From: a virus | IMG/VR virus record: IMGVR_UViG_3300035199_000782 | Span: 1 to 22,474 of that record | Strand: one strand, 5' to 3' | Length of the DNA stretch: 22,474 nt | Part shown: positions 5,924 to 14,641 of the stretch, piece by piece | How positions within the stretch are numbered: the first letter of the stretch is position 1 | Layout of the letters: every line of letters starts with the position of its first letter | Translations under genes and position numbers: made by a program | The notes under the pieces: model-generated | Databases searched by the model: none | Seen by the model: the letters and a program-made list of their open reading frames with translations, nothing else | Told to the model about the DNA's origin: nothing

Positions 5924-7183
5924 ATGAGTGAATTTTATGCGGAAAAAAATAACGAGTCCTCCTTTGAGCTTTTTAATAAGCGCACCGTGTATAAAGGCGA
6001 ACTGCTGCGCAGCTATCAGCCTAATATTGTTAACTTTTTTGAGGGAGAGAAAATTCTATATGGGCGTATAAGTCGGAGATTTATACCACTTACAGTGAGT
6101 CCTCACATCCTCGCACCAGTCGCCGCAACTTCTGGTGATCGCCCGTTGCAGGCAGTTAATTTTGTAGCGGCCGTCTTTCAAGAGATGGCTCTCCAGTTTA
6201 AAAAGTGCGCCCAGCGCGGACAAATTATAGATGACGATCCACATCTTACCAATCTCATAGCCTATAAAGCTTATGTATCTCCGCGCAGCCAATATTTAGA
6301 ATATAAAACCGCGTATTTCGCCGCCATCGCGAGTAAATTTAGAGAGCATAACATTAAGGTAACTAACTTTCGGGAATTCATATATGCTCTTTTCCCCATT
6401 ATTCGAGATGCATTACGGCAGAAGCCTCTTACTTTCCCGGGCTTTGTAAAAAGCACGAGTTGCTCTATTTTAGGCTCTGGCTTGGCAATAGAGATAGCCA
6501 GCATGGATTATATTAATGATGCTCAAAAGGTAACAGAATTGGTCCAAAGCCCAAACTGGGAATTTTTTGTTAACACTTGCAATTCCTACGGGTTTATGGT
6601 AGACTATCATGTACCCTGGAGAATTGTGGCAGATATTGGAACCGATTCTATGAAGGAAATAGCGCGCAAATATGGACTTAACCACATTCTAGATCATGGC
6701 TATGGAAACGCAGCATCTCTTTACTTAAGAGGGTTTTTAGTGGATCTGCGGAATCTTTATAATACTGTTGTAGAGCCGGTAATCGTAGAAACTGAAACAT
6801 GTAAAAACGGCACCACCAAAAGGCACGTGAAGAGACGCACAGAATATACGGTGCGCCAATTAGCGCAATCTCACGACGCGTATGAGTTTGTTAAAATTTA
6901 TTTGCAACTACGCCTTTACGAAGAGGTTCCCACCATGCGCCAAGTAGACATGGATAAAGTAATCCGAGAATATCTCAACATCACCAAAAAAACAGCGTCC
7001 ATGCGGCATATTTCATTTGCATTTGAAAGTATTATCAATAAAACGTTTGACAAGAGAGGCTCAATGAGTTATCTTAGAAGAGAGCTAATAGCACAAACGC
7101 GCAAAGGCTTTGCCGAGGGCACTATTGAGAATGTAGCCATTAGCGATATGGGTATGACATACGATGATCTTTCAAGCTATTGA
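5924..7183 (+). CDS. Conserved phage protein of the tail/baseplate region, function unknown
   Basis: 419 residues; starts two bases after the large virion gene, with AAAGGA about 10 bases upstream of the ATG. Recognisable segments are KPLTFPGFVKS, GSGLAIEIASMDY, and GFMVDYHVPWRIVADI at about residues 223-238, followed by an alpha-helical C-terminal half with many basic residues. I associate this pattern with an uncharacterised protein encoded among tail genes of marine myovirus-like phages, but cannot name a function. No membrane segment, signal peptide or enzymatic motif is visible. It overlaps the DNA polymerase start by 20 bases, so it joins the structural block to the replication block and polymerase translation may depend on ribosomes finishing this gene. 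Confidence 0.55.
   Translation: MSEFYAEKNNESSFELFNKRTVYKGELLRSYQPNIVNFFEGEKILYGRISRRFIPLTVSPHILAPVAATSGDRPLQAVNFVAAVFQEMALQFKKCAQRGQIIDDDPHLTNLIAYKAYVSPRSQYLEYKTAYFAAIASKFREHNIKVTNFREFIYALFPIIRDALRQKPLTFPGFVKSTSCSILGSGLAIEIASMDYINDAQKVTELVQSPNWEFFVNTCNSYGFMVDYHVPWRIVADIGTDSMKEIARKYGLNHILDHGYGNAASLYLRGFLVDLRNLYNTVVEPVIVETETCKNGTTKRHVKRRTEYTVRQLAQSHDAYEFVKIYLQLRLYEEVPTMRQVDMDKVIREYLNITKKTASMRHISFAFESIINKTFDKRGSMSYLRRELIAQTRKGFAEGTIENVAISDMGMTYDDLSSY
7047..7075 (+). promoter_or_regulatory. Weak candidate sigma70 promoter before DNA polymerase
   Basis: A perfect TTGACA (7047-7052) is followed after 17 bases by TATCTT (7070-7075), which keeps only the T1, A2, T3 and T6 positions of the -10 consensus. 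It lies inside the upstream gene, about 90 bases before the polymerase ATG. Listed because of its position at the structural/replication boundary; alone it is weak. Confidence 0.25.
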
Positions 7184-8339
7184 TGATAAAGCACAATGTA
7201 TAGGGGTATATGCGGAAGGTAAACTTCACTTTGACTCATTTCCTGAGCCGCTAACCCAAACATGGAAATACACAGGCTCCTTGAAGGAGCATGCGCCGCA
7301 GTCTGCGTGGATCCGGGCATCAGGTCGAAGCCTGATAGAATGTTGCCCTATAGAGCTTGCGGAGGAATTGGACGCTGCTCAGAGTAAGATGCGCGCCTAC
7401 ATCAAGTCGTTCACGATAGCCAAAGTCGATCTTAATGATCATTGTGTATTTGACTTGATTCCTCACGACTTTTTGCTGGCATTCTGCGAACTTAAGAACA
7501 AGATCACAGAGCACGTGTTTGAAGCATTTCCGGAGCCGCCAAACTATAAACACCTTGAAGAAGTCCAGCGGCTACTCCACAAGATCAAATATCAGAAACT
7601 CAACCTTAATAGTGAAAATTGTCGCAACTTATTTTATGCGTCCCGCGAGAGAACGAAGGCCAACGAGCTAATAAGAAATTATAACTATATCGACTATAAT
7701 CTCTTTGGGACAGTGACAGGGCGCCTCACAACGAACCCTGGTTCTTTCCCCGTGCTCACGCTTAAAAAAACATATCGGGCGCTCTTAAAGCCCAATAATG
7801 ATCTTTTTGTTAGCTTGGATTATAATGCCGCCGAAGTCCGCACGTTTATCGAGCTACGAGGCTCCTCGCAGCCTCAAAAAGATATCCACCAATGGAACAT
7901 CGAAAACATTTTTAAGAACGAAGAGGTGAGCCGTGACGAGGCAAAAACCATATTCTTTGCGTGGCTTTACAACCCCGAGTCAGAACAAATTCAATCGGAA
8001 CTATATAATCGTCAAAAAGTGCTTGACAAGTGGTACGATAATGGTTATATTAAGACACCCTACGGAAGAGAGATTCAAGTGGACGAGCGCCGAGCACTTA
8101 ATTATATCATTCAGAGCACATCGGCGGATCGAGTATTAACAAAAGCAGTGGAAATCGATAAACTATTGGAAGGCAAGAAATCTTATATCTCCCATGTCGT
8201 GCATGATGAAATAGTAATTGACTATGCAGATGAAGATCGGGATCTAATTATGCTAATTAAAGATACCTTTGAAGACGGATATCTCGCCAACCTCAAAGGT
8301 GGTAAAGACTATTTTAATCTGGCGGAGTTAGAGTTATGA
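7164..8339 (+). CDS. Family A DNA polymerase, polymerase domain only
   Basis: 391 residues. The palm/fingers motifs of family A polymerases are clear: TGRL at residues 185-188; motif A SLDYNAAEVR with the metal-binding Asp at about 219; motif B starting R257 with K261 (RDEAKTIFFAWLYN, normally RxxxKxxxFGxxYG); GYIKTPYGR before the O-helix-distal region; and motif C VVHDEIV with H347-D348-E349. It therefore copies the phage genome. The roughly 180 residues before TGRL show no DxE or other 3'-5' exonuclease motifs, and the whole protein is far shorter than T7 gp5 (704) or Pol I (928). The ATG at 7164 lies 20 bases inside the previous gene and the stop overlaps the next ATG (ATGA). Proofreading, if any, must come from another gene outside this window. 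Confidence 0.9.
   Translation: MIFQAIDDKAQCIGVYAEGKLHFDSFPEPLTQTWKYTGSLKEHAPQSAWIRASGRSLIECCPIELAEELDAAQSKMRAYIKSFTIAKVDLNDHCVFDLIPHDFLLAFCELKNKITEHVFEAFPEPPNYKHLEEVQRLLHKIKYQKLNLNSENCRNLFYASRERTKANELIRNYNYIDYNLFGTVTGRLTTNPGSFPVLTLKKTYRALLKPNNDLFVSLDYNAAEVRTFIELRGSSQPQKDIHQWNIENIFKNEEVSRDEAKTIFFAWLYNPESEQIQSELYNRQKVLDKWYDNGYIKTPYGREIQVDERRALNYIIQSTSADRVLTKAVEIDKLLEGKKSYISHVVHDEIVIDYADEDRDLIMLIKDTFEDGYLANLKGGKDYFNLAELEL
8023..8051 (+). promoter_or_regulatory. Candidate intragenic sigma70 promoter in DNA polymerase gene
   Basis: TTGACA (8023-8028), 17-base spacer, TATATT (8046-8051): a 6/6 and 5/6 match at the optimal spacing. It lies in the 3' part of the polymerase gene, about 285 bases before the next gene. 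GTCAA at 8011-8015 forms an inverted repeat with the TTGAC of the -35 box with a 7-base gap, the same geometry as upstream of the deaminase gene. It would transcribe the tubulin-like gene and SSB. Confidence 0.45.
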
Positions 8340-10341: not shown

Positions 10342-10372
10342 GGCAGACCGGTAAAAAGTCTGCCGCATTTTT
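10342..10372 (+). terminator. Terminator-like stem-loop after the 77-residue gene (stem-loop B)
   Basis: GGCAGAC (10342-10348) pairs perfectly with GTCTGCC (10358-10364) across the loop CGGTAAAAA, followed by GCATTTTT. It shares GGCAGA, the loop-start CGG and the TCTGCC arm with stem-loop A, but the closing pair is C-G where A has G-C, a compensatory change. Next comes AGGAGG of the following gene. Confidence 0.7.
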
Positions 10373-10390
10373 AATTTATAGGAGGATATG

Positions 10391-11545
10391 ATGGCAATTC
10401 CATCTAACAAAACTGAACAATTACTGTTCGATTTAATTGAAGCTTGTCGCTCTGGCGAAGCTTTTACAAACACAAAAAACAAATTTTATGGAAAAGTTGA
10501 AGAGCGTATTATGGATACCTCCGTCTTTTTCCATCCCCAGCTTGACTCCAAGCCGTCCGAATTGTTTGATTCCGCAACATGGTTTTTGGATCAAGTACGT
10601 GTCGGAGAAATTTCAGAAAACAATTACAAAAAGAAATACGAATCAATCAGATCTCGCGGGATCTTAGAGTCTGGATGGGCGGTTCTAGATAACGAGCCCA
10701 ATTCTAAGTGGACCGGTCGCGTTCTAGACAGCGTAACGCGCATTGTATTAGCGCGTACTTGTGAAACAAACGAACATGTTGATTCGTCGATTGCTGTGCC
10801 AATGTTTGTTGTTACAGATGCAGATTTGATTCGCTTAATTATGAAAAATAAGAAAAGTTTTCAAACCATGGCGAATGATCACCCCCCTTCTGATTCCTCA
10901 AGTGCTGATGATATAAAGAAGCTGATTCGGGATCTTATCGCTGATGAGCCAGCGCCGGCAAAACAACATAGCAAGTCTTTCAAAACAAGGTTGGCCACGC
11001 ATGTGTATCGTATGGTGCACACGAACAATACGCGCACCACTATAAGAAACTATGTTAGCGAAGTATACAACACAATTGAACAATCAACTAATGGAGTTAA
11101 AGGTTATTTAGAACCAAAAGCTAGAGCAAATTCTGTTCGTAAGGCTTTAGAAGCCGGAAAGGGCACTTTTAAGATTGATGCCTCAAAGTGGACCGCGACT
11201 AAGAAAGAGTATACACACGAAGACTACAAGATCTATCAAGGGGCTCCGACAAGGGGCAGTTTGAATAAGGATTTCGGTCGTGAAATTGAAAGAAAGGCTG
11301 AAGGAGAAGATACGCGCTCAAGCGTGTATGTGTTCAGAACAGACGCCAAAACCCCTACGAAAGTTAGGGACGCACAGGTTGCCGTCTTTGATAAGATCAA
11401 TGCTATGCATAAGTATCTTGGAGTGACAATCTTCGACAAGGTATATGCTTTGGGTCAGATAACTAATGTAGACGCTGGCAAGCTGCTCAGTGAGACTGAC
11501 GTGCGCGCCGCAGAAAAGAAACTAAAAGTAGTTAACGCTAAGTGA
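10391..11545 (+). CDS. Unknown protein, first gene of methyltransferase-nuclease cassette
   Basis: 384 residues from the ATG at 10391, chosen because AGGAGG (10380-10385) is 5 bases upstream; an ATG at 10388 is only 2 bases from it. I do not recognise the family. It is soluble-looking, with no membrane span or signal peptide. Residues about 150-190 contain an acidic/Ser/Pro linker (DHPPSDSSSADD and ADEPAPAK) separating a mixed N-terminal part from a Lys/Arg-rich C-terminal part, so a two-domain, possibly nucleic-acid-binding protein is plausible. Its stop overlaps the GTG start of the adenine methyltransferase (GTGA), which suggests coupled translation and a related role. It could be a specificity, regulatory or structural partner, or simply an unrelated early phage protein; the sequence does not decide. 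Confidence 0.65.
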   Translation: MAIPSNKTEQLLFDLIEACRSGEAFTNTKNKFYGKVEERIMDTSVFFHPQLDSKPSELFDSATWFLDQVRVGEISENNYKKKYESIRSRGILESGWAVLDNEPNSKWTGRVLDSVTRIVLARTCETNEHVDSSIAVPMFVVTDADLIRLIMKNKKSFQTMANDHPPSDSSSADDIKKLIRDLIADEPAPAKQHSKSFKTRLATHVYRMVHTNNTRTTIRNYVSEVYNTIEQSTNGVKGYLEPKARANSVRKALEAGKGTFKIDASKWTATKKEYTHEDYKIYQGAPTRGSLNKDFGREIERKAEGEDTRSSVYVFRTDAKTPTKVRDAQVAVFDKINAMHKYLGVTIFDKVYALGQITNVDAGKLLSETDVRAAEKKLKVVNAK

Positions 11546-12381
11546 ATACCCCGTTGCGATATCCGGGCGGCAAGTCACGTGCTGTGAAGCACATCTTGCC
11601 CCTCATTCCCGAAGATTGTGGAGAGCTTTGCTCTCCCTTTCTCGGAGGCGGCTCAATAGAGTTGGCTGTGGCTGAGCGTGGCACGAGGGTGCACGGCTAT
11701 GATATTTTTGAGCCTCTGGTTTGGTTTTGGCAAGCACTTTTGTCGCAACCTGCCAAGCTTGCAATATTGTGTGATGGGATGCGCGTGTGGCATCCTGAGT
11801 ATCTTAAAAAGTATAAAGTCAGAAATTCAGATCCACCTGAGCACTATCATGTTCCTCAACGTGGACTATTAAAAGAAGACTTCGATCAATTGCGTGAAGA
11901 ATTAAGGAAAGAAGATTCCTATTCGTTGCGCAATGCCGCAGCATTTTATGCCATTAACCGTAGTAGCTTCTCGGGCGCTACTTTTAGCGGTGGCTATTCT
12001 AAACGCGCTGCATATGCACGCTTTACGGATAGTCGCCTAAAAGACCTTAAAAACTTTAAAGAGCCCAATTTGACTGTAGGACATGCTCATTTTACTGAAT
12101 CCCTATCTCGGCACCCGAATGCATTTCTATATTTGGATCCACCGTATCTACTAGGAGCCCAAAGAGAGAAGCTTTATGGCGATAGCGGCAACACCCACGG
12201 AGGGTTTGATCACGCAGCGCTATCTCGGTTAGTCGGCCAACGCAGCAACTGGGTCATGTCTTATAATGATTGCGAAACAATCCGAGATCTATATAAGGAC
12301 TATGAAATACAAGAAGCTGCGTGGACCTATGGAATGAATAAAAGTAAAGAGTCTTCCGAGATACTAATTATTGCAAGATGA
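11542..12381 (+). CDS. D12-class DNA N6-adenine methyltransferase (Dam-like)
   Basis: 279 residues, GTG start at 11542 overlapping the previous stop. The class D12 layout is clear: N-terminal RYPGGKSRAV (residues 6-15), SAM-binding FLGGGSIELA (33-42), a target-recognition region in the middle with INRSSFSGATFSGGYS, catalytic DPPY at 199-202, and VMSYND near the end. Enzymes of this class transfer a methyl group from S-adenosylmethionine to N6 of adenine in double-stranded DNA; T4 Dam and E. coli Dam modify GATC, but the target here cannot be read from sequence. Its stop overlaps the ATG of a PD-(D/E)XK nuclease gene (ATGA). The pair could protect phage DNA from host enzymes or from the adjacent nuclease. 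Confidence 0.9.
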   Translation: MNTPLRYPGGKSRAVKHILPLIPEDCGELCSPFLGGGSIELAVAERGTRVHGYDIFEPLVWFWQALLSQPAKLAILCDGMRVWHPEYLKKYKVRNSDPPEHYHVPQRGLLKEDFDQLREELRKEDSYSLRNAAAFYAINRSSFSGATFSGGYSKRAAYARFTDSRLKDLKNFKEPNLTVGHAHFTESLSRHPNAFLYLDPPYLLGAQREKLYGDSGNTHGGFDHAALSRLVGQRSNWVMSYNDCETIRDLYKDYEIQEAAWTYGMNKSKESSEILIIAR

Positions 12382-13487
12382 ATATGAACGAAATACATAT
12401 TAAGTTTAGAGAGCAAATGGAAGAAGAGTTGGACGTCCCCCAGGAACTAGAAAAGGATCTGGATAAGCCGCTCCCATCCCCCCAAGACTCGCCGGAAAGC
12501 AATCTAAAGCGTGCCCTTCGCGTAATTGAAGCAGAGGGATATGACTACAAGATTGTTAAAAATCACATTAGAGTTTTGGACGATCAGCGCCTGGAGACAA
12601 TGCAAAAACTAAATCAAATGCTTTCTCCGTTAGGCTTCGTTCACAATCCCATCGGCGGCGGCAGTAGCATCGGACGCTTAGAACTTCAAGACCGTAAAGC
12701 CGGCAGCGTCTATGTGTATGTGAAACCAAAGAGACGCACCGCCGCATCTGCTGGTATGGATTTTGAAGAGCGCTTAGCAAACGAAATCACCCAGCGCTAC
12801 CGCCACGCGGGAATTACCGCCAAGACTGCTGGTTTTGGTCATGGCTCCGATCTTGCCATTATGAAGAACGGGCGCACGATGATGAGCATTGAGTTAAAAA
12901 CAGCGCTCTCTGCTGACTTCGGACAGTTCCGAGCGCAATACAACTTAACCACCAAAACGTGGGAGCCACGCCGCACACCGGGATACGTAAAGAATAAAAA
13001 AATCTTTGGTCCCTTGTTTAATGACTATTTGCGCGATTGGCTCAACCAAAATGCAAGGTTCCCGGATCTCTATGACCGGCGCCTAAACCTATCAGCAAAC
13101 AATATTGTGGGGATCCATCGCTCTTTGAAGACGGGTGAGTTAAAGAAAGAATTGCAACAAGCATGGTTCAAGGGAAAAACAGATTTAAAGATCCCCTTTG
13201 ACTTTTCTCGTATTGCTGGGTATTACGCCGACAAAGGCGATTCATTTATTCAAATCGATGAGCGCGGGCTTTATGCCCTAAAGGCGCAAGCACAAACACT
13301 CATCGACGTACCCATGTTTGCAGATCTGGGCTTGAAGTGCGACTTGAGATTCCGTCTCAAGCCCTCAAGCGGAGAAAACAGCGCGACTAGCTTTACCATC
13401 GCAGTAAAGATCAAAGGACGCTATAATAAATCAAATCTTAGCTTGACAAATGCCGAAGATTTAGATAAAATAATATCAATGCTTTAA
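12378..13487 (+). CDS. PD-(D/E)XK superfamily nuclease-like protein
   Basis: 369 residues; ATG at 12378 overlaps the methyltransferase stop. Residues 1-120 are a hydrophilic region with an acidic, Pro-rich stretch. A nuclease core follows: FEERLANEI (E130/E131), then FGHGSDLAIM with D158, then SIELKTA with E172 and K174. The order E...D-x13-E-x-K is the PD-(D/E)XK signature used by many restriction and repair nucleases. Next is ADFGQFRAQYN, a conserved-looking segment after the active site. The last 130 residues look like a mixed alpha/beta domain of unknown role. The gene is coupled to an adenine methyltransferase, which makes a restriction-like or host-DNA-degrading role plausible, but a replication or recombination nuclease is equally compatible with the UvsX gene just downstream. 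Cleavage activity and specificity are unproven. Confidence 0.75.
   Translation: MNMNEIHIKFREQMEEELDVPQELEKDLDKPLPSPQDSPESNLKRALRVIEAEGYDYKIVKNHIRVLDDQRLETMQKLNQMLSPLGFVHNPIGGGSSIGRLELQDRKAGSVYVYVKPKRRTAASAGMDFEERLANEITQRYRHAGITAKTAGFGHGSDLAIMKNGRTMMSIELKTALSADFGQFRAQYNLTTKTWEPRRTPGYVKNKKIFGPLFNDYLRDWLNQNARFPDLYDRRLNLSANNIVGIHRSLKTGELKKELQQAWFKGKTDLKIPFDFSRIAGYYADKGDSFIQIDERGLYALKAQAQTLIDVPMFADLGLKCDLRFRLKPSSGENSATSFTIAVKIKGRYNKSNLSLTNAEDLDKIISML
13443..13471 (+). promoter_or_regulatory. Sigma70-type promoter for uvsX
   Basis: TTGACA (13443-13448), 17-base spacer, TAAAAT (13466-13471). It lies in the last codons of the nuclease gene. The expected start of transcription is near 13478, giving a leader of about 24 bases that contains the uvsX ribosome site AGGAG. 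The geometry is that of a dedicated promoter. Confidence 0.7.
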
Positions 13488-13501: not shown

Positions 13502-14641
13502 ATGGCAAAAGCCAAAGCGGGTCGCGTTGCAATGCAAGACCTAATGAAACTAATAAACAAGAGAGCGGGCAGGAAGGTTGCCCACAATCTATCGGGCGAC
13601 AACCCCACCAGCGTGAAGGAGTGGATTCCAACAGGCTCTCGGTGGCTCGATAGTATTATCTGCAAAGGGCATGTCGCTGGTATCCCCGTCGGGAAAGTGA
13701 CAGAGATTGCCGGGCTGGAGTCCACAGGCAAATCTTACATGGCCGCGCAAGTCGCCGCAAACGCTCAGAAACAGGGCAAGCTCGTTGTATATTTTGATTC
13801 CGAGTCAGCCATCGATCCAAACTTTTTAAGCCGTGCAGGCTGCGATCTAGAGCGCTTAATGTACATTCAAGCATCCTCTGTGGAGTTTGTTCTTGAAACC
13901 ATTGAAGAGCTTCTGGGTGCAACTGATGAACAGGTTGTTTTTATCTGGGACTCCTTAGCATGTACTCCTTCTGTGTCTGATGTGGAGGGGGATTTCAACC
14001 CACAATCATCGATGGCAGTGAAGGCGCGGATCTTGGCGAAGGGAATGTCTAAGTTGACGATCCCGTTGGCCGACAAGCAGGCGACTTTTATTGTTCTTAA
14101 CCAGCTTAAGACCAATATTCCGCAAGGACCCAACGCTCGCATCGTGGCAATGACCACTCCCTACACCACCCCAGGCGGCAAGGCTATGCACTATGCATAT
14201 TCGCTGCGCATTTGGTTAACCGGAAGAAAGGCGAAAGCATCGTTCGTTGAGGATGAGAGGGGCTTCCGGATCGGATCCGAGGTGAAGATAAAGCTTGAAA
14301 AGTCTCGCTTTGGAACCCAGGGTCGTTCTTGTGCTTTCCGCATTCTGTGGGGCACTGAAGATATCGGTATCCGTGACGAAGAGTCGTGGTTTGATGCCAT
14401 CAAGGGCTCAGACTCTCTAACGTCTGCGGGAGCGTGGTATACCCTTAGAACTGATGATGGCTACGAAAAGAAGTTTCAACCCTCTAAGTGGACGGCGCTC
14501 GTAACAGAAGATGAAGAGTTTAGAAATCGCGTCATTCGGCTGATGGACGAAGAGATCGTTCAGAAGTTTGATAAGCGAGAGGGAAGTGCCGAGGTTTTCT
14601 ACGCTGATCCCGAAGACCTCACTGTGCCGGTGAAAGAATAA
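13502..14641 (+). CDS. uvsX: UvsX/RecA-family strand-exchange recombinase
   Basis: 379 residues; AGGAG precedes the ATG at 13502. The RecA-type ATPase core is evident: EIAGLESTGKSY with Walker A at residues 71-78 (K77), VVYFDSESAID after it with the conserved acidic residue, Walker B VVFIWDSLA ending at D150, then an ATPase sensor region IVLNQLKTNIP and TTPGGKAMHY. The C-terminal 90 residues are the charged tail seen in phage UvsX proteins. Length is close to T4 UvsX (391) and the P-loop GLESTGKS is closer to phage UvsX than to bacterial RecA (GPESSGKT). It forms ATP-dependent filaments on single-stranded DNA and drives recombination-dependent replication, with the gp32-like SSB and the helicase of this window as expected partners. 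It has its own promoter at 13443-13471. Confidence 0.9.
   Translation: MAKAKAGRVAMQDLMKLINKRAGRKVAHNLSGDNPTSVKEWIPTGSRWLDSIICKGHVAGIPVGKVTEIAGLESTGKSYMAAQVAANAQKQGKLVVYFDSESAIDPNFLSRAGCDLERLMYIQASSVEFVLETIEELLGATDEQVVFIWDSLACTPSVSDVEGDFNPQSSMAVKARILAKGMSKLTIPLADKQATFIVLNQLKTNIPQGPNARIVAMTTPYTTPGGKAMHYAYSLRIWLTGRKAKASFVEDERGFRIGSEVKIKLEKSRFGTQGRSCAFRILWGTEDIGIRDEESWFDAIKGSDSLTSAGAWYTLRTDDGYEKKFQPSKWTALVTEDEEFRNRVIRLMDEEIVQKFDKREGSAEVFYADPEDLTVPVKE

Follow-up and report, generated by a model that had tools for sequence, protein, structure and literature searches.

Viruses are already known to carry restriction-modification genes. In T4-type phages, shuffled genes are reportedly bounded by repeated terminator-like stem-loops, the PeSL cassettes attributed to Arbiol in 2010 and Comeau in 2014. 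Chloroviruses package a restriction nuclease that helps to degrade host DNA (PMC7253447). The internal proteins of phage T4 carry N-terminal head-targeting propeptides of 10-19 residues, which gp21 cleaves off after L/I-X-E; when joined to such a T4 propeptide, EcoRI or staphylococcal nuclease has been packaged (PMC9026906). The ParB/Srx fold has been described as an NTPase and possible nuclease (PMC4619093).

The window analysed here is an IMG/VR virus fragment of 22,474 bases from a marine phage with T4-like replication genes, and its UvsX shows at most 33% identity to cultured phages among the matches listed. The original prediction of a three-gene cassette was confirmed: the ORFs are present with the 4-base overlaps GTGA and ATGA, a stem-loop lies just 5′ of the cassette and a promoter-like site lies at its 3′ end ahead of uvsX. 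The finding stands and extends beyond its first description; the N-terminal leader that the nuclease shares with other proteins and the stem-loop-marked exchange site had been missed, being beyond the view of that prediction. The features of the region are as follows.

10342..10364, + strand: conserved terminator-like stem-loop GGCAGACCGGTAAAAAGTCTGCC, followed by a T-run, marking the exchange site 5′ of the cassette (from sequence)
10388..11545, + strand: U1, the swappable first gene, 385 aa, possibly ParB/Srx-like (ORF; no family match)
10727..10810, + strand: U1 residues 114-141, D-S-V-T-R...V-P-M-F-V, candidate ParB/Srx-like signature (motif)
11542..12381, + strand: Dam, D12-class N6-adenine DNA methyltransferase, 279 aa, GTG start (Pfam, PADLOC, PDB)
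12378..13487, + strand: putative PD-(D/E)XK nuclease, 369 aa (ORF; catalytic signature kept in 13 homologues)
12384..12428, + strand: nuclease leader MNEIHIKFREQMEEE, a diverged MKxLxENWRxFLxE (orthologue alignment; leader profile)
12765..12899, + strand: nuclease catalytic core E130, D158, E172-x-K174 (invariant columns)
13443..13471, + strand: promoter-like site TTGACA-17-TAAAAT (consensus scan, 11/12 matches)

The promoter-like site overlaps the 3′ end of the nuclease gene, with uvsX starting at 13502, and the number of such sites found by consensus scan in the region was not above that in shuffles. Elsewhere in the window, a short family A DNA polymerase-like ORF of 391 aa (7164-8339) was found, with a profile match mainly to the C-terminal part.

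By its sequence, the middle ORF clearly belongs to the D12-class adenine methyltransferases. It gave a full-length match to Pfam MethyltransfD12 above the curated cut-off (residues 7-265, 1.3e-27), a PADLOC Type II MTase match (1.1e-47), and matches to the PDB chains 7m6b (1.5e-33) and DpnM (2.8e-6). Palindrome counts in the uvsX-anchored set of relatives found GATC equally represented in loci with and without dam. In the same set, the observed/expected ratio of GGCC was 0.49 in dam-positive versus 0.87 in dam-negative loci, kinship being ignored.

As the third ORF matched no Pfam family and the structure models were poor, it is called a nuclease here on its motif. The signature E130, D158, E172-x-K174 and D180-x-G-Q-F was found to be conserved in 13 homologues, down to 25% identity, with E130, D158, E172 and K174 invariant and F181 nearly so, a residue pattern that would be expected of a PD-(D/E)XK nuclease. 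With the D12 profile match of Dam, this bears out the claim that the motifs of both enzymes are intact. AlphaFold models built from shallow alignments reached a pLDDT of 52 for the nuclease and 47 for U1, and Foldseek searches with these models gave no usable fold match; PDB sequence-profile searches with the nuclease, U1 and C3 (another first-slot protein) found no relative. Bacterial and archaeal genomes, scanned with the nuclease alignment A4 by a pattern method that may miss distant homologues, yielded no confirmed one. In one relative, a remnant of the nuclease N-terminus follows dam (L047:2565-2642), which suggests decay or deletion of the nuclease.

Like a Type II restriction-modification system, the cassette joins an adenine methyltransferase and a PD-(D/E)XK-type nuclease, putative here, in one overlapping unit. 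Unlike such a system, it belongs to a tailed phage and sits at an exchange site, has a swappable first gene, and its nuclease, often leader-bearing, pairs with either Dam or Mom. A modification gene was present on all of the approximately 40 contigs that carry the nuclease (dam on 37, a Mom-family gene on 3), many of these contigs being near-duplicates and so not 40 independent events. The concern that most relatives might have the nuclease and no methyltransferase was thus not borne out; two apparent nuclease loci without dam (L093 and L110) were ruled out as gene-calling errors. The modification gene, dam or mom, lies next to the nuclease gene in the nuclease contigs, much as the methyltransferase gene does in Type II systems, with a 522-aa ORF between them in L197. 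The Mom-family partner was identified by Pfam Mom in L114 (5e-12) and L121 (4e-12) and by similarity in L196, at the following positions.

L114:2726-4776: nuclease with a Mom-family gene instead of Dam
L121:3228-4930: the same arrangement
L196:3563-4953: the same arrangement

The nuclease and its modification gene were found in at least three genomic contexts, namely the ssb-uvsX interval, beside PEPCK (L110-L112) and with Mom (L114/L196), and from the latter two it follows that the association outlives the ssb-uvsX site. A restriction-modification-like unit, as originally proposed, is therefore supported, every nuclease homologue found being accompanied by a modification gene even at other positions. 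Because the nuclease also occurs with Mom in the place of Dam, the coupling does not establish a strict Dam-cognate enzyme; such double pairing would not be expected of a strict cognate Type II pair. The gene for PEPCK (phosphoenolpyruvate carboxykinase) lies directly 3′ of the nuclease in L112 (7067-8521; Pfam 3.8e-181), and also in L110 and L111.

The relatives compared comprised 80 contigs anchored on uvsX, plus more anchored on U1 or the nuclease, and among them the ssb-uvsX interval was hypervariable. A 23-base stem-loop, GGCAGACCGGTNAAAAGTCTGCC, was present in 117 copies inside the ssb-uvsX intervals of relatives, a count that includes overlapping, redundant loci, and no copy lay anywhere else in the relatives' sequence of about 1.08 Mb; six copies counted as outside all lay at the start of uvsX, where the ORF caller had extended uvsX over the element. 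Contigs G001, G002 and G003 have one copy each, and inserted genes are flanked by a direct copy on either side, for example C10 in L042 and C15 in L048. The site is empty in the majority of relatives. Among 78 loci with both flanks, 53 lack dam and 25 carry it. The expectation that a phage Dam usually stands without a coupled nuclease held for the larger part of these 25, in which dam is alone or has other partners, but not for about 10, which also carry this nuclease. Restriction-like cassettes at the site include MunI-like plus dam, GmrSD-like plus dam, and a GHKL ATPase plus dam plus nuclease. Comparison of these loci shows that related phages exchange cassettes at the stem-loop-marked ssb-uvsX interval, and we infer that recombination occurs at the stem-loop itself. 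Unlike in PeSL cassettes, this stem-loop occurs at one site only, and there is not always a promoter 3′ of it. The shared N-termini of C6, C34 and C22, considered as a leader, were ruled out, as they are translated stem-loop sequence.

The first gene had been suggested as a possible source of specificity or control, and two comparisons do not support such a role for it beside this pair. Loci L019 and L082 share about 98% identity to either side of the first gene, including the dam-nuclease pair, but one has C3 and the other the unrelated U1 in the first position, the break in identity falling at the start of dam; and a close relative (L002) equals the window except that U1 is exactly absent between stem-loop and dam. 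Therefore, this dam-nuclease pair has no fixed first gene, and U1 as a fixed specificity subunit was ruled out. U1 matched no family in Pfam, PHROGs, PADLOC or NCBIfam, nor did a test for the ParB/Srx (DGQHR) superfamily find a significant profile match in these collections. Residues D114 and R118 are invariant among U1 relatives, and a regular expression for the pattern D/E/N-G/S-x-x-R...P, written after viewing U1, C3, C15 and C19, matched those 4 of the 43 clusters of at least 250 aa, all of them first-slot; profile comparison of U1 with C3 was weak (5.8% probability). Since the pattern is post hoc and this comparison weak, we treat U1 as ParB/Srx-like only hypothetically. Other occupants of the first slot are a GmrSD_N/NsnA-like protein (C20), a ParB_N-like protein (C25), a GHKL ATPase (c120) and a MunI-like protein (C22), the ParB/Srx-like and GHKL-ATPase signatures being weak. 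First-slot proteins resemble GmrSD and DndB-type ParB/Srx proteins in that some match GmrSD_N, NsnA or ParB_N weakly and in having a D-G-x-x-R-like signature; U1 itself differs in matching no family model. Genes with a ParB/DGQHR-like motif were also found alone in the ssb-uvsX interval, with neither dam nor nuclease, in L006, L021, L042, L048, L063 and L065.

Most of the nucleases start with MxMKxLxExWRxFLxE, and so do unrelated downstream-slot proteins (C21 and C37). The leader is also present on a short, divergent nuclease type (L191-L193), and its other bearers include zeta-toxin/AAA-like and HAD/polynucleotide-kinase-like proteins. With a profile made from nine non-nuclease leaders, the nuclease leaders ranked 9-20 and that of the window 31 among 2824 ORF N-termini; the reverse profile, from nuclease leaders, recovered the other leaders, and 0 of 615,867 internal windows reached a score of 20 with it. 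No convincing match to the leader was found in the cultured T4-like phages Syn9 and HTVC008M, so that it looks clade-specific. As in T4 IPI-IPIII, the leader is short and N-terminal and has unrelated bodies behind it, as capsid-targeted internal proteins do, and in most orthologues it ends near a candidate L/I-X-E site (FLKE, YLRE or FLSE); some leader genes also adjoin a gp21-type protease (for T4, PMC9026906), and in four contigs, L136, L137, L138 and L140, genes with related leaders are neighbours of the prohead protease gene. The leader sequence differs from that of T4, and the copy in the window ends in MEE and lacks a strict L/I-X-E. Some leader bearers are far from head genes. The gp21-type prohead protease (PF03420) was above cut-off in contigs of 8 of 12 relatives, the window being a fragment, and the major capsid proteins of these phages have a similar LLRE|S stretch, which we infer to be a cleavage site.

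We favour, with a probability of about 0.6, a modular phage-borne unit for self-marking and cutting that sits at a genome site dedicated to exchange. Dam, or Mom in some relatives, would modify adenines of the phage genome, as suggested by their families; the accompanying PD-(D/E)XK nuclease would spare the modified phage DNA and cut unmodified DNA of the host, of plasmids or of competing phages. The first gene would be an exchangeable accessory that in most cassettes, to judge from weak motifs, probably belongs to the ParB/Srx NTPase/nuclease class, and the units are those that related phages exchange at the stem-loop-marked interval. If so, phages would wield restriction-modification offensively and trade the units at a dedicated site. 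The leader resembles a T4 capsid-targeting propeptide cut at L/I-X-E, and the nuclease may therefore be packaged and injected: in most relatives the leader-bearing nuclease would be carried in the head and enter with the modified genome, which would explain why the co-packaged genome needs modification. We put forward only tentatively, and with more doubt than belief, that a marine T4-like clade packs a restriction-type nuclease by means of this leader and injects it with a Dam- or Mom-protected genome as a restriction-modification weapon.

It is possible, though we would not bet on it, that the cassette is instead cargo of the host-defence type, directed against superinfecting phages, expressed late or in persistent infection and never packaged, the leader being an unrelated conserved element. 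Exchange at a single hotspot is a typical trait of defence cargo, the nucleases of L032, L120, L121 and L197 have no leader, and the MxMK part of the leader coincides with the stop of dam, where it may help to couple translation; yet the W..(F/Y)L.E part recurs on proteins uncoupled to dam and beside the prohead protease. An unlikely explanation is that Dam is an orphan anti-restriction shield and the nuclease an unrelated enzyme of recombination, repair or host-DNA degradation sharing an operon by uvsX. That dam is alone or has other partners in most dam-positive loci fits this, as does the position of the site between replication and recombination genes, but every nuclease found had Dam or Mom with it, the pair is kept at other genome positions, and a general repair enzyme ought to occur also in the majority of relatives, whose site is empty. 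We consider it very improbable that the nuclease is modification-dependent (Type IV-like), cutting DNA with foreign or host modifications, and that the first gene encodes a GmrS-like NTPase for it. Although some first-slot genes are GmrSD_N/NsnA-like, phage DNA modified by the adjacent Dam or Mom would then risk self-cutting, and two different adenine modifiers as partners argue for protection, not targeting.

The self-marking and cutting unit recalls the chloroviruses in that methyltransferase and restriction endonuclease are both virus-encoded; those are algal viruses with unrelated particles, whereas packaging in the present phages is only predicted. If the leader is a capsid-targeting signal, these phages would hold a tailed-phage counterpart of the packaged chlorovirus restriction enzymes, DNA modification would act as the antidote that protects the co-packaged genome, and further injected proteins of this uncultured clade could be listed by means of the leader. 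Zeta-toxin/AAA-like, HAD-like and unassigned leader bearers at L182:12253-13398, L166:11493-12543, L147:2346-3371 and L173:2578-3057 are candidate packaged proteins.
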